Source: Selenomonas sp. oral taxon 920
GTDB taxonomy: Bacteria > Bacillota > Negativicutes > Selenomonadales > Selenomonadaceae
Reading direction: 5' to 3'
NCBI RefSeq assembly: GCF_001717585.1
Contig: NZ_CP017042.1
Span: 1,766,501-1,830,500 of the forward strand
DNA: 64,000 bases
Shown piece after piece: positions 502 through 57,330 of the stretch (the first letter of the stretch is position 1; every line of letters starts with the position of its first letter). The notes beneath the pieces were generated by a model. The model was not told where the DNA came from. It saw only the letters and a list, made by a program, of their open reading frames with translations, and did not search any database. Made by a program: the position numbers and the translations under genes.

Positions 502-2037
502 TTACTTTGCATAGTCGACGACGCGCGTCTCGCGAATGACCGTCGCCTTGATCTGCCCCGGATATTCGAGATCGCCCTCGATCTTCTTTACAATGTCGTG
601 AACGAGAACGGCAGCACCTGCATCGTCCACCTTGTCCGGCTTCACCATGACGCGGATCTCGCGCCCTGCCTGAATGGCAAAGCATCGCTCCACGCCGTCG
701 AATGACTCAGCAATCTCCTCGAGTGCCTTCAGCCGCTTGATGTAGGACTCGAGGCTCTCACGGCGCGCACCCGGGCGTGCGGCTGAAACTGCATCCGCAG
801 CAGCCACGAGCACCGCCTCGATCGTCGTCGCCTCCTCATCGCCGTGATGAGAGCCAATGATGTTGATAACTTCCTTGGACTCACGATATTTGCGTGCAAG
901 ATCGGCGCCGACCGTCACGTGAGGTCCCTCGACCTCATGGCTGACCGCCTTGCCGATGTCGTGCAGAAGACCGCCGCGTTTGGCGAGCATGACATCACAG
1001 TCGAGCTCGGCCGCCATGAGCCCCGCCAGATGTGCAACCTCGATGGAATGTGCGAGCACGTTCTGACCGTAGCTCGTCCGATAGCGCATGCGTCCGAGGA
1101 GGCGCACAAGCTCCGGATGAATACCGTGAACCCCCGTCTCAAACGTCGCCTGCTCCCCCGCCTCCTTGATGCGCTGATCGACCTCACGCCGCGCCTTCTC
1201 GATCATCTCCTCGATCCGTGCGGGATGAATGCGTCCGTCCTGGATCAGCTTTTCGAGTGCAATGCGCGCGACCTCGCGCCGCACAGGGTCAAATCCGGAG
1301 AGGATGACCGCCTCCGGCGTATCGTCGATGATGAGATCAATGCCCGTCAAGGTCTCCAGTGTGCGGATGTTGCGCCCCTCGCGCCCAATGATGCGGCCCT
1401 TCATCTCGTCGTTCGGCAGGGCCACGACCGAGACTGTCGTCTCCGCTACGTGATCGGCCGCACAGCGCTGGATGGCAACGCTCAGAATCTCGCGTGCAGC
1501 CTTGTCCGCCTCGTCCTTCGTCTGCTGGATATACTCCTTGATCTTGCGCGCCTTCTCATGCTTCAGCTCCTCTTCTGCCTCTGCCATGAGAATCGTGCGC
1601 GCCTCCTCTGATGAAAGGCCGGACACGCGCTCGAGTTCCTGCTTCTGACTCTCGCAGAGCGCCGTGATCTCCGCCTGTGTCTTGTCGATCCGCGCCTCCT
1701 TGCGCTGGAGTCCCTCTTCCTTCTTTTCGATGGATTCGAGCTTGCGGTCGAGGTTCTCTTCCTTTTGTATCGCGCGTCGCTCGAGACGCTGAATCTCGCT
1801 GCGGCGTTCCTTCGTATCGCGTTCGAACTCCTGCCGCTGGCGCTGGATCTCTTCCTTCGCCTCGAGCAGGGCCTCCTTCTGCTTTGTCTCCGCTTTCTTT
1901 CCGGCCTCCTCGACAATGCGCTTTGCTTCTTCCTCGGCTGATCCTATCTGAGCCTCCGCCGTGCGCCTGCGCGCGACATAGCCCGCAGCAGCACCGACAG
2001 CAACGGCAATAATTACCATCAATATTTCAGTAAGAAT
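502..2037 (-). CDS. rny: Ribonuclease Y
   Basis: Membrane-anchored endoribonuclease that starts decay of many mRNAs in Firmicutes. Domain order is typical: one N-terminal membrane helix (about residues 3-20), a long charged coiled coil (about 25-195), a KH RNA-binding domain with [15 protein letters not shown], and an HD phosphohydrolase domain with [11 protein letters not shown] and GSHHGDEE carrying the metal-binding His-Asp pairs. Length (about 511 aa) is usual for the family. The start is uncertain. The only good Shine-Dalgarno (AGGAGG, 2046-2051) overlaps the GTG at 2044-2046 and is 8 bases from an ATT at 2035-2037; the first ATG (2017-2019) is too far away. I therefore place the start at the ATT (see findings). 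A sigma-A promoter lies upstream. Confidence 0.95.
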
Positions 2038-5891: not shown

Positions 5892-6761
5892 TCAAGGAGC
5901 CGCACCTTCGTGCTTTGGCGCGAACTGCTCCCGATACTGCTTCGGCGTAAGGTATCCAAGGGCATATGCAGGGCGCTCCGCGTTGAAGAAGCGAATGTAG
6001 TCGGATACCTGAGCGGGGACATTCTCCGGCGAAGTAATATGGAAATCTGTAAAGAGTTCGGCCTTGATCCAACCATTAATCGCCTCCATCGCGGCATTGT
6101 CTGTCGGTGTGCCGGCTCTGGACATTGACCTGACAATGTTGTACATGGGCAGGAGTTCGTTGTAGCTCTTGGATGCGTAAACAGAGCCTTGATCGCTGTG
6201 CAGGATGAGCTTCTGATTCGGATACTGCTTCTTGAACGCAAGCACGTCCTGCAAGCCGTCGAGGTAGGTCATGCGATCGCCGCGCTTGGATGAGAGCGCG
6301 TGGGCAATGAGCTCGTCATTCCACAAATCCATATATAGTGTGAGCTCGTAGTATGTGCGCTCCACATAAAAAGCGGTCATATCACTCACCACACATTCCA
6401 TGGGGCCGGTGATGTTGATTCCTGCAAGCAACAAGTTCGGATAGGTTCTGGACGGATCGCCCTCCTTCTTGTAGCTGTAATGTTTGCAAAGGCTCTTGAT
6501 CCCTGCGATCTTACAGCATTTATGGGCATAGGGATCGGAAAATACGATTCCTTTGTCCAATCGGATCTTGGCATTCAGCCAGCGGTAGCCATGGGAGGGA
6601 AAGCGCCCATGGTATTCCTGAAACAATCCGATGCTCTGCACAAGCCGTTTCTTCTGTTCGGGTGGATGTTCCACGCTCTTCTTCCAGTTGTAGAAGCTGC
6701 TGCGTGGGATTCCGGTCTTTGTACAGAGCAGCCGGATGGGGAACTGTCCGGAAAGCTCCAT
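5892..6761 (-). CDS. IS3-family transposase, OrfB (DDE integrase part)
   Basis: The catalytic half of the transposase (289 aa from its ATG). An N-terminal HTH-like region carries the typical GIPRSSFYNWKK, followed by an rve integrase core with the DDE acidic residues in VVSDMTAFYVE, LILHSDQGSVYAS and a later Glu in DNAAMEAINGWIKAELF, and the end motif RPAYALGYLTPKQYREQF. It is normally made as an OrfAB fusion by -1 frameshifting: the frame is open upstream of the ATG back to the slippery run at 6833-6839. The ATG lies 2 bases past the orfA stop and lacks a strong ribosome binding site. Confidence 0.93.
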   Translation of the reverse strand: MELSGQFPIRLLCTKTGIPRSSFYNWKKSVEHPPEQKKRLVQSIGLFQEYHGRFPSHGYRWLNAKIRLDKGIVFSDPYAHKCCKIAGIKSLCKHYSYKKEGDPSRTYPNLLLAGINITGPMECVVSDMTAFYVERTYYELTLYMDLWNDELIAHALSSKRGDRMTYLDGLQDVLAFKKQYPNQKLILHSDQGSVYASKSYNELLPMYNIVRSMSRAGTPTDNAAMEAINGWIKAELFTDFHITSPENVPAQVSDYIRFFNAERPAYALGYLTPKQYREQFAPKHEGAAP

Positions 6762-6763
6762 GA

Positions 6764-7132
6764 CTACTTGGTATTCTTCCTGCCGATAGGAATGAACGTC
6801 TTTTCCGCACCAACTCCTTCCACCAGATAACCTTTTTTTAAGCGTGCCTCTGTGATCCTTGCCATAACGAGGGCGTCGATGAGTTCTTCTTTCGTCATGG
6901 ACTGGAGATCTTCCAGGCCGGTGGGAACTGGTATGGATTTGGTCTTGGCAAGACCCAAGCAGCTGCGCACACCCCTTTTCGGCGGGAGCTGGTTGGCATC
7001 CCGGTAGTGGCGCATGTAATCCCGTGCGGTCTGCTCGCTGATCCCATATTCTTCTGCTGCTTCATATCTCGTAAGCTCGCCGTCGTAGATCCGACGGCCT
7101 ATGTCCAAACGTTGCTCCTTGGTGTACTTCAC
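6764..7132 (-). CDS. IS3-family transposase, OrfA (DNA-binding part)
   Basis: A 122-aa HTH protein that binds the IS ends. It begins MKYTKEQRLDIGRRIYDGEL; the motif RYEAAEEYGISEQTARDYMR is the helix-turn-helix. The start is taken as the GTG at 7132, because AGGAGG sits 7 bases upstream; an earlier ATG at 7153 overlaps that site on the wrong side. Near the 3' end the frame reads TTA AAA AAA GGT, a slippery A7 tract. A -1 slip there joins it to orfB. Confidence 0.88.
   Translation of the reverse strand: MKYTKEQRLDIGRRIYDGELTRYEAAEEYGISEQTARDYMRHYRDANQLPPKRGVRSCLGLAKTKSIPVPTGLEDLQSMTKEELIDALVMARITEARLKKGYLVEGVGAEKTFIPIGRKNTK
6833..6839 (-). promoter_or_regulatory. Programmed -1 frameshift site of the IS3 transposase
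   Basis: Seven consecutive A residues on the minus strand in the context CTT AAA AAA AGG. A -1 slip moves from the OrfA frame to the OrfB frame and continues through EEYQVVMELSGQ into the integrase. A purine-rich GGAAGGAG follows about 12 bases downstream. This is the standard IS3-family arrangement. Confidence 0.75.
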
Positions 7133-7618: not shown

Positions 7619-7647
7619 ATTATAGCGATTTTTCCACATCTTGTCAA
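7619..7647 (-). promoter_or_regulatory. Sigma-A promoter of tRNA-Pro
   Basis: TTGACA (7642-7647), a 17-base spacer and TATAAT (7619-7624) form a consensus promoter 11 bases before the tRNA. It overlaps the stop codon of the swrB-like gene. Confidence 0.85.
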
Positions 7648-8450
7648 TCCCTTTGCGTCATCTGCTTCATGAGACGGAGCGCTCCAATCTCGACGCCCGT
7701 CTCACGCGCCACCTGCTCAATCGTGCGTCCTGCACGCAGGAGTGCACGTGCCTTGATGATCGCCTCATCCTCCTGTGCGGGTTCTGCTTCTGCTTCCGTC
7801 ATCATGGGCGGCTGCGGGGGCGACGGCACACGCGGCGGAGGTGCGGGCATTGCTGCTGCAGACTGACTGCGCACAGGCTGAAGCACAGGTGCGGGAGTCT
7901 GCGGATGTTCCGACTGCACTGCTGCGCGCGCTGTCGGCGGGGGCGGTACAAAGGACTGCGCTGCAGGCTCTGCTGCGGCGCGTGCATGCTCCCGTAAAAT
8001 GGACTGATGAAGAACAGCCGCAAACTCATCGCCGTCCGTACGACGTGCCTCCTGTACGGGTACCATAGGAGGCACAGGTTCCGGCGAACGCATGACAGGA
8101 GGAGCCGGCGGTGTTTGACCAAGGTCACGCAGGCGTCGTTCAAGTTCTTCGATACGCTGCCGGAGCGCCCACTCGAGACGCTGTCCATCCGCCACGCGCG
8201 TCTCGAGACGCACACACCGATCATCCGCCTCGCGCAGGAGCCCCTCGAGCTTGGTCACATGAGAGCCGAGCCGCTTAATGATGGTATCGGCGGATTGCTG
8301 CAATTCCTTTTTCAGCTTCTCGATGGATTCCGCAAGATCTTCGTCCGCCTCATCACTGCGCTGTCTCCGATGGAGAACGTACCGTACGATAAGCAGCAGG
8401 ACAGCACCGAGGATGATGAGTGCACCCAGAATTTCGGTAACAGAAATAAT
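7644..8450 (-). CDS. SwrB-like (DUF6115-type) membrane-anchored protein
   Basis: A 268-aa protein with an N-terminal membrane helix (EILGALIILGAVLLLIV), a coiled coil (about residues 40-95) and a long Pro/Ala/Gln-rich linker. The C-terminal HTH-like module (IIKARALLRAGRTIEQVARE to the end) resembles the DUF6115 end of Bacillus SwrB, which promotes assembly of the flagellar export apparatus. Position supports this: it closes the fla/che operon after sigD, as in Bacillus. After an upstream in-frame stop there is no ATG, GTG or TTG until a TTG at 8303 that would delete the membrane helix. GGGAGG is 9 bases from an ATT at 8448-8450, which I take as the start (see findings). Confidence 0.75.
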   Translation of the reverse strand: MISVTEILGALIILGAVLLLIVRYVLHRRQRSDEADEDLAESIEKLKKELQQSADTIIKRLGSHVTKLEGLLREADDRCVRLETRVADGQRLEWALRQRIEELERRLRDLGQTPPAPPVMRSPEPVPPMVPVQEARRTDGDEFAAVLHQSILREHARAAAEPAAQSFVPPPPTARAAVQSEHPQTPAPVLQPVRSQSAAAMPAPPPRVPSPPQPPMMTEAEAEPAQEDEAIIKARALLRAGRTIEQVARETGVEIGALRLMKQMTQRD

Positions 8451-55902: not shown

Positions 55903-55931
55903 TTGACAGTCACGCTGTATTCTGTAATAAT
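55903..55931 (+). promoter_or_regulatory. Sigma-A promoter of brnQ
   Basis: TTGACA (55903-55908) with TAATAA (55925-55930, 16-base spacer) or AATAAT (55926-55931, 17-base spacer). The in-frame ATG at 55930-55932 overlaps the -10, so it would not be in the resulting mRNA. Confidence 0.7.
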
Positions 55932-55986
55932 GAAGGATAATATTTTGAATCGTTATTTCTGTGTAATATCTTTGGAGGGAATCGCC

Positions 55987-57330
55987 ATCAACGCACTCAA
56001 AAAGAAAGACCTCTTGACGCTTGGTTTTATGATGTTTTCCATCTACTTCGGCGCAGGAAATCTTATTTTCCCGCCCGCGCTCGGTCAGGCGGCGGGCGAT
56101 CATACACTGCTCGCAATGCTCGGCTTCATGACGACGGGCATCGGGCTGCCGCTGCTCGGCATCACCGCGATCGCGCTCGCGGGCGGTGAATACGTGCCGC
56201 TCCTGCGCACAAAGACATGGCCGATGTTCGCAACGGTGCTGCTCATCATCCTGTACCTCATCATCGGACCGCTGTTTGCAATGCCGCGCACGGGTGCCGT
56301 CTCATTCGAGATCGGCATACGCCCCTTCCTCGCCGAGGAAAATCTCACACAAGGGCAGTTTATCTACACGGCACTCTTCTTTGCCGCGTCCTATTATCTC
56401 GCGCTGAATCCGAACAAGATCATCGATCGCGTGGGCAAGATGCTGACGCCGGCACTCCTGCTCGTCCTGCTCATCCTCTTTGTGCAGGCGTTTCATGCGC
56501 CGCTCGGAGGTGTACTTGAACCGACTGGGAACTACATCGACGCACCATTTGCACAGGGATTCCAAGACGGCTATCAGACGATGGATCTGCTCGCCTCGAT
56601 CGCCATCGGTGCACTTGTAGCAAACGCCGTACGTCTGCGCGGGATCACGGACAGCCGCGCCATCGGTGCCGCGTGTCTCGTCTCCGGTCTCATCACCGTT
56701 ACCCTCATGGCAATTGTCTACGGCTCGCTTGCCTACATCGGCGCGACGAGTGCCTCGGTGCTCGGCCACTCGGAAAACGGCGGTCAGATTCTCTCGGGCG
56801 CAGTCGGCATCTTCTTCGGCTCTGCAGGCAATCTTCTGCTCGCCGTCATCATCGCGCTTGCGTGCCTGACGACCTGCTGCGGCATCACCTCGAGCGCGGC
56901 GATGTTCTTCAACAAGCTGCTGAAGGGTCGCATCTCATACGAGCGTCTGCTGCTCCTCTCGATTCTGTTCAGTTTTGCAGCATCGAATGTTGGTCTGACG
57001 CAGATCATCGCACTCGCCATTCCATTCCTCGTCGTGATCTATCCACTCGTCATCGTGTTCGTCATTCTCTCGCTCTTTGACCGTTTCATCGGCTGGCGCA
57101 GAAGCATCTATCAGGGCGCGATGGCATTGACGCTCGTATTCTCGCTGATCGACGGTTTGCATGCAGCGGGTCTGAGCAGCACTCCGGTACACGCGCTGCT
57201 TGTAGAGTATATCCCGTTCTATGCGATTATGATGGGTTGGGTCTGCCCCGCTGTTGTCGGTGCAGTTCTCGGCTTTGCCGTCTCACTGTTTCAGACTGCG
57301 CCTGTGCCCGCAGAGGAGGCACATATATAA
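55987..57330 (+). CDS. brnQ: Branched-chain amino acid permease BrnQ
   Basis: A 447-aa sodium-coupled importer of Leu, Ile and Val with about 12 helices. The N-terminal family signature KKKDLLTLGFMMFSIYFGAG is followed by NLIFPPALGQ. The frame is open to 55807, but upstream starts are poor: an ATG at 55930 overlaps the promoter -10 and a TTG at 55972 overlaps the ribosome binding site. GGAGGG (55974-55979) is 7 bases from ATC at 55987, exactly where homologues start (Met-Asn-x-Leu-Lys-Lys), so an ATC start is proposed. CodY, encoded nearby, is a likely regulator by analogy. Confidence 0.93.
   Translation: MNALKKKDLLTLGFMMFSIYFGAGNLIFPPALGQAAGDHTLLAMLGFMTTGIGLPLLGITAIALAGGEYVPLLRTKTWPMFATVLLIILYLIIGPLFAMPRTGAVSFEIGIRPFLAEENLTQGQFIYTALFFAASYYLALNPNKIIDRVGKMLTPALLLVLLILFVQAFHAPLGGVLEPTGNYIDAPFAQGFQDGYQTMDLLASIAIGALVANAVRLRGITDSRAIGAACLVSGLITVTLMAIVYGSLAYIGATSASVLGHSENGGQILSGAVGIFFGSAGNLLLAVIIALACLTTCCGITSSAAMFFNKLLKGRISYERLLLLSILFSFAASNVGLTQIIALAIPFLVVIYPLVIVFVILSLFDRFIGWRRSIYQGAMALTLVFSLIDGLHAAGLSSTPVHALLVEYIPFYAIMMGWVCPAVVGAVLGFAVSLFQTAPVPAEEAHI

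Follow-up and report, generated by a model that had tools for sequence, protein, structure and literature searches.

At which codon does translation of brnQ begin in Selenomonas sp. oral taxon 920? The window, a 64,000-nt stretch of this 2.44-Mb genome, contains a gene for a branched-chain amino acid carrier whose only well-placed Shine-Dalgarno sequence precedes an ATC codon. A sequence-only reading had proposed this codon as the start, with BrnQ production possibly tied to the level of initiation factor IF3. The features concerned are as follows (window coordinates).

55903..55931, + strand: brnQ promoter of the sigma-70 type, TTGACA-17-AATAAT, matching the consensus at 11 of 12 positions
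55938..55986, + strand: predicted brnQ 5' leader of ~49 nt, unstructured, placed from the promoter
55972..55974, + strand: in-frame TTG overlapping the Shine-Dalgarno sequence, a rival start that is not favoured
55974..55980, + strand: brnQ Shine-Dalgarno sequence GGAGGGA, 6 nt from the start codon
55987..55989, + strand: probable AUC start codon of brnQ, at a column that is ATA/ATC in the genus and ATG in the outgroup
55987..57330, + strand: brnQ, branched-chain amino acid transport system II carrier protein, 447 aa (PF05525, TIGR00796)

The local layout was as the sequence-only reading had described it. GGAGGG (55974–55979) is followed by 7 bases and then by ATC (55987–55989), the -10 hexamer (55926–55931) runs into the in-frame ATG at 55930, and the TTG at 55972 has base 55974 in common with the Shine-Dalgarno sequence. 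An additional in-frame TTG, not listed in that reading, lies at 55945, close to the expected transcription start. Downstream of the ATC, the codons run AAC GCA CTC AAA AAG AAA GAC, and the further claim that reading ATC as methionine yields a BrnQ-like N terminus agreed with the nearest outgroup proteins (MNRLKKKDLLTLGF versus (I)NALKKKDLLTLGF in the window protein) and with both family models, namely PF05525 (3e-140, residues 6–433) and TIGR00796 (2.2e-130, model positions 1–405 of 405, a full-length match to the LIVCS family). A second brnQ-like gene in the same genome, 40% identical, has an ordinary ATG start. Folding gave no support for a regulatory RNA structure at the start: the leader is less structured than its shuffled versions (z = +1.5; 196 of 200 shuffles fold equally well or better), and an Rfam search of the whole window at gathering thresholds returned six tRNAs and nothing else. 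Neither of two patterns representing the 16S rRNA 3' end matched the assembly, where this end may be masked or missing.

We compared the start column across 14 genomes of the genus, including the window's own, and brnQ start codons could be read in all 14. The relatives include Selenomonas infelix, S. massiliensis, S. noxia, S. flueggei, S. felix, S. artemidis, Selenomonas sp. F0473 and Centipeda periodontii; in another of the 14, G012, brnQ is interrupted by a run of N. The column was ATA in 8/14 genomes and ATC in 6/14. ATG, GTG and TTG, the codons named beforehand as counting against an AUC start if found at the homologous column of close relatives, occurred in 0/14. The sequence-only reading had asked whether ATT or ATC is conserved here: a non-NTG codon (NTG denoting ATG, GTG or TTG) is kept throughout, and the codons are ATA and ATC, not ATT and ATC. 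Of 59 family genomes beyond the genus that have a close brnQ, 56 were read, and the column was ATG in 53/56, GTG in one, TTG in one and ATT in one. Each exception has a canonical codon nearby, with ATG at codon -5 in the GTG genome, GTG at -3 in the TTG genome and ATG at -2 in the ATT genome. Given the prevalence of ATG in the outgroup, this column is most likely where brnQ starts across the family, with a switch to AUH (AUA, AUC or AUU) in the genus.

The signals around the column are also largely shared. GGAGGGA stands at a 6-nt gap before it in 12/14 genus genomes, with zero differences within GAGGGA in 12/14, and the 11-of-12 promoter recurs in 12/14 with predicted leaders of 44–54 nt. In S. 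artemidis and F0473, this promoter was not found within the 110 nt searched, AAGGGA replaces GGAGGGA, and an in-frame ATG with its own AAGGAG lies five codons upstream; brnQ evidently starts at this upstream ATG in these two of the 14 genomes.

Conservation carries weight here because the motif by itself does not. Within the one genome, a Shine-Dalgarno core lies 5–10 nt upstream of codons other than ATG, GTG and TTG at rates of 0.5–4.7%. When the window and 400 kb of the same genome were scanned for AUH starts with a strong Shine-Dalgarno sequence, ATH had eight 'wins' versus two to eight for eleven control triplets, from which it was not separated; with a margin of at least 2, ATH had three wins versus zero to three for the controls. 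The combination of Shine-Dalgarno sequence and ATC at brnQ is thus not beyond chance in a single genome, and it rises above chance because ATA or ATC is found in 14/14 genomes and GGAGGGA at the same distance in 12/14. As ATH could not be separated from the control triplets, we claim no genome-wide count of AUH starts. Some scan matches presumably correspond to RuvC and Era, which they resemble by their protein motifs and for which we would expect an ordinary ATG start, and further matches look like frames over neighbouring genes. A lipoprotein-like gene (L151:8893, minus strand) with ATA after AAGGAGG was also set aside: the seven other related loci shown have ATG, including a G012 gene that shares its leader, and so do the paralogues, which makes the ATA an isolated single-species change or a sequencing error.

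We next asked whether the column could be an internal isoleucine codon. Spacer codons -2 and -1 showed 2 synonymous versus 49 non-synonymous pairwise differences among ten genomes and 2 versus 89 among twelve, compared with 6057 versus 1757 (ten genomes) and 9412 versus 3142 (twelve) in the brnQ body; these counts are pairwise over related genomes and hence not independent. Farther upstream, codons -10 to -5 showed 5 synonymous versus 214 non-synonymous differences among ten genomes. Such patterns show a spacer evolving as non-coding DNA would, with coding-type evolution beginning at the AUA/AUC column.

The variation at the column itself is also unlike that of isoleucine codons. Four disjoint sister pairs each have ATA in one member and ATC in the other (the window's genome/S. 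infelix, FOBRC6/G012, S. flueggei/S. felix and S. artemidis/F0473, the last being the upstream-ATG pair). Isoleucine codons in the brnQ bodies of these pairs show 33 ATC/ATT differences and one ATA/ATC difference (Fisher 6.8e-5 versus the column). ATA occupies 8/14 columns versus 14/605 body isoleucine codons (Fisher 1.7e-9, uncorrected for kinship), and accounts for 673 of the 7184 isoleucine codons sampled from the genome. By parsimony on the brnQ tree, in which 7 of 13 forks are open and the clades holding the four sister pairs are starred, the column has undergone at least five ATA/ATC changes, with ATG and ATT never seen. The column therefore does not look like an ordinary internal isoleucine codon. 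A stop codon of an upstream open reading frame overlapping the brnQ start (AUAA) was rejected: it exists only in genomes whose ATA is followed by A, and it lacks conservation.

Competing starts differ in strength among the 12 GGAGGGA genomes. The predicted leader is free of NTG in two of them, S. flueggei and S. felix, in which no in-frame ATG, GTG or TTG was found, so AUC or AUA initiation is close to forced there. In both species an in-frame TTG (codon -16) lies one base beyond the predicted leader, which would include it if the transcription start were slightly misplaced. The other ten have an NTG without a Shine-Dalgarno sequence at codon -5 or -7: codon -5 is TTG, ATG or GTG in nine, and one more (G002) has ATG at -7. 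An upstream start without a Shine-Dalgarno sequence is possible in these ten, and the nine have T at a base where A would better suit the Shine-Dalgarno sequence. Weighing these comparisons, we consider it probable that brnQ in the window's genome is translated from AUC 55987 (probability roughly 0.82).

Of the alternatives, one is compatible with this start and concerns its history. The genus ancestor may have used an upstream ATG while the former start codon mutated from ATG to an isoleucine codon; upstream signals would then have been lost, returning the ribosome to that codon, and the AUC/AUA start would be real, a historical accident and no regulatory device. Both species with an upstream ATG do have ATA or ATC at the column; in nine of the other 12 genomes, codon -5 is an NTG. 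However, S. artemidis and F0473 are placed in the tree with a support of only 48/25, the reverse order, in which an upstream ATG repaired a weak start, fits equally, and ATG has returned in 0/14 genomes even though it is a single transition away from ATA. We regard a start that moved and came back as a real possibility, but less likely than not.

The main rival start, an unlikely one, is the NTG at codon -5 (TTG 55972 in the window), used without a Shine-Dalgarno sequence. On that account ATC 55987 would be an internal isoleucine codon and GGAGGG merely part of codons 1–3. Codon -5 is indeed an NTG in 11/14 genus genomes (TTG 6, ATG 4, GTG 1), and S. artemidis and F0473 evidently start there, with ATG preceded by AAGGAG at 9 and 7 nt, and carry ATA or ATC as residue 6. 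In S. noxia, AGGA precedes the GTG at this codon. However, codon -5 is CAG in S. flueggei, TCG in S. felix and GGG in G002, where an apparent 2-nt insertion puts TTG out of frame, though ATG is available at -7. No other GGAGG or AAGGAG occurs within 30 nt of the column in the 12 GGAGGGA genomes. The synonymous and non-synonymous counts (2 versus 49) mark the spacer as non-coding, GAGGGA is invariant including third bases, and column 0 varies between ATA and ATC, not between ATC and ATT.

Initiation at ATG 55930 or TTG 55945 is highly improbable: both are in frame and AAGGA lies 7 nt before TTG 55945, but position 55930 falls within the -10 hexamer and the AAGGA (55933–55937) lies ahead of the predicted transcript. 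Both codons lack conservation in the predicted leaders of the other genomes, none of which has an NTG at codon -14, and codons -10 to -5 give no sign that the leader is coding.

With AUC 55987 as the preferred start of brnQ, we examined other genes of the genus for AUH starts, two of which lie in the window.

8448..8450, - strand: AUU start codon of an unnamed gene (7644–8450), at a column that is ATT/ATC in the genus
2035..2037, - strand: probable AUU start codon of rny (gene 502–2037), at a column that is ATT/ATC in the genus

The best-known case is infC, which in Escherichia coli and other bacteria starts at AUU, AUC or AUA and is autoregulated by IF3. Its start column is ATA in 14/14 genus genomes (AGGAGGTGTTCTTGCC ATA AGC AGG), all 14 of which encode IF3; in the window's genome it was examined around G000:C1:1529636-1529845. 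An in-frame ATG occurs farther upstream in 3/14 genus stretches and is not conserved. Outside the genus, 158 genomes matched, 30 loci were fetched and 29 of them read (L239 was left out); the column was ATT in 28/29 loci of the same family and ATA in 1/29. Like brnQ, infC of E. coli and other bacteria combines an AUH start with a strong Shine-Dalgarno sequence and keeps it among relatives, whereas the AUH start of brnQ is limited to one genus among the family genomes read. Unlike infC, brnQ encodes an importer and not a factor that inspects codons, so no closed feedback loop is expected.

The unnamed gene (8450–7644, minus strand) has GGGAGG followed by ATT ATT TCT GTT ACC GAA, and its product has a hydrophobic N terminus; searches of Pfam and NCBIfam gave zero matches. 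Its start column is ATT in 13 and ATC in one of the 14 genus genomes. In all 14, the open frame begins 5–7 codons upstream and has no ATG, GTG or TTG at or before the column. The frame stays free of NTG through codon +14 in seven genomes; early NTGs elsewhere are GTG at +3 in three genomes, TTG at +7 in four and ATG at +13 in one, and the window's genome has its first NTG 54 codons past the upstream stop. In the outgroup, where 16 loci were read from 112 genomes having the gene, an ATG lies two codons further on in 15 and three in one. Taken together, ATA at infC in 14/14 genomes and the lack of a canonical start in this gene indicate that AUH starts work in the genus.

RNase Y, the rny product, is the enzyme that starts mRNA decay. 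In the window (2037–502, minus strand), AGGAGGTGGCCGTT is followed by ATT, and across the genus the column is ATT in eight and ATC in six of 14 genomes, after AGGAGGTGGC[CT]GTT. A GTG lies within the Shine-Dalgarno sequence in all 14 genomes, which leaves the AUH start of rny in the genus probable but not proven. Beyond the genus, we sampled 16 and then 20 family genomes and 20 from other families, all picked from the listed matches. An AUH codon at or within three codons of the column was found in 16/16 family loci, in one genome from each of 20 genera, and in 20 genomes from 18 further families. Over a reach of 15 codons, the frame carries no NTG up to and including the column in 4/20 of the 20-genus sample (in genus g11, a suitable ATG adjoins the column at a fair distance), and is free of NTG from its opening or codon -15 to codon +7 in 9/20 of the 18-family sample. 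Over much of the class, RNase Y thus seems to start at an AUU, AUC or AUA preceded by AGGAGGTG or GGGGGTGA. In E. coli, an AUU start reportedly limits pcnB, another gene of RNA metabolism, which parallels rny and differs from the transporter gene brnQ. In Bacillus subtilis, rny uses AUG, and much lower expression of an AUC mutant is also mentioned (PMC10303841).

How might an AUC start serve brnQ? The strong GGAGGG sequence would hold the 30S subunit with AUC in the P site, where initiator fMet-tRNA would read it with a third-base mismatch, so that BrnQ would begin with methionine and have the ordinary BrnQ length. By analogy with the cases below, initiation would be weak, on the order of a tenth of that at AUG, and opposed by IF3. 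An importer initiated in this way would be kept low and would rise when IF3 is scarce. That the column has no ATG despite at least five ATA/ATC changes is suggestive, though no proof, of selection against an efficient start. The AUC/AUA start thus probably holds production of the importer low, and may link it to the translation machinery.

The closest precedents come from Staphylococcus aureus, where infC (AUA), ccpN (AUA), cvfC1 (AUU) and citZ (AUA) have strong or extended Shine-Dalgarno sequences (PMC13009471). Three AUA/AUU reporters tested there gave ~10% of AUG in poor medium, and ccpN reached up to 30% of AUG in rich medium (PMC13009471). Like brnQ, ccpN, cvfC1 and citZ pair a weak start codon with a strong Shine-Dalgarno sequence; the start is conserved for ccpN and cvfC1, and citZ and ccpN are metabolic genes (PMC13009471). 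These are different genes in a different class, and their starts were established by Ribo-Ret and reporters whereas ours is drawn from comparative sequence. In Streptomyces, IF3 represses the GTC start of sigR, a non-canonical start that, as proposed for brnQ, holds the gene down, and one that had been misannotated to an upstream canonical codon; the codon is GUC and not AUH, and IF3 dependence is experimental for sigR but inferred for brnQ (PMC5472188).

Few bacterial genes are known to have conserved AUH starts, and gene finders restricted to ATG, GTG and TTG misplace such starts. The phenomenon itself is established (infC, pcnB, ccpN), and brnQ, rny and the unnamed gene are added to it here; we found no earlier mention of AUH starts for these three in open PubMed Central papers. 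A genus-wide AUA/AUC start of an importer gene, beside ATA at infC and ATT/ATC at rny, raises the question of an IF3-controlled gene group in Negativicutes. ATG occupies 0/56 start columns of brnQ, infC, rny and the unnamed gene (four genes in 14 related genomes). Speculatively, and with odds that we place clearly against it, Negativicutes, oral Selenomonas above all, may have an IF3-governed set of AUH genes comprising infC, rny, the unnamed membrane protein gene and brnQ. Selection would keep AUG out of the four start columns, and the level of one factor would set mRNA decay, nutrient import and translation fidelity together.

The window also contains an open frame (5895–6764, minus strand) that recurs at L163 12278–13147 and 15070–15939, giving three copies in the sampled parts of the genome. 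The copies are identical over the compared 25 nt upstream and first 40 codons, and the frame is probably an insertion element.
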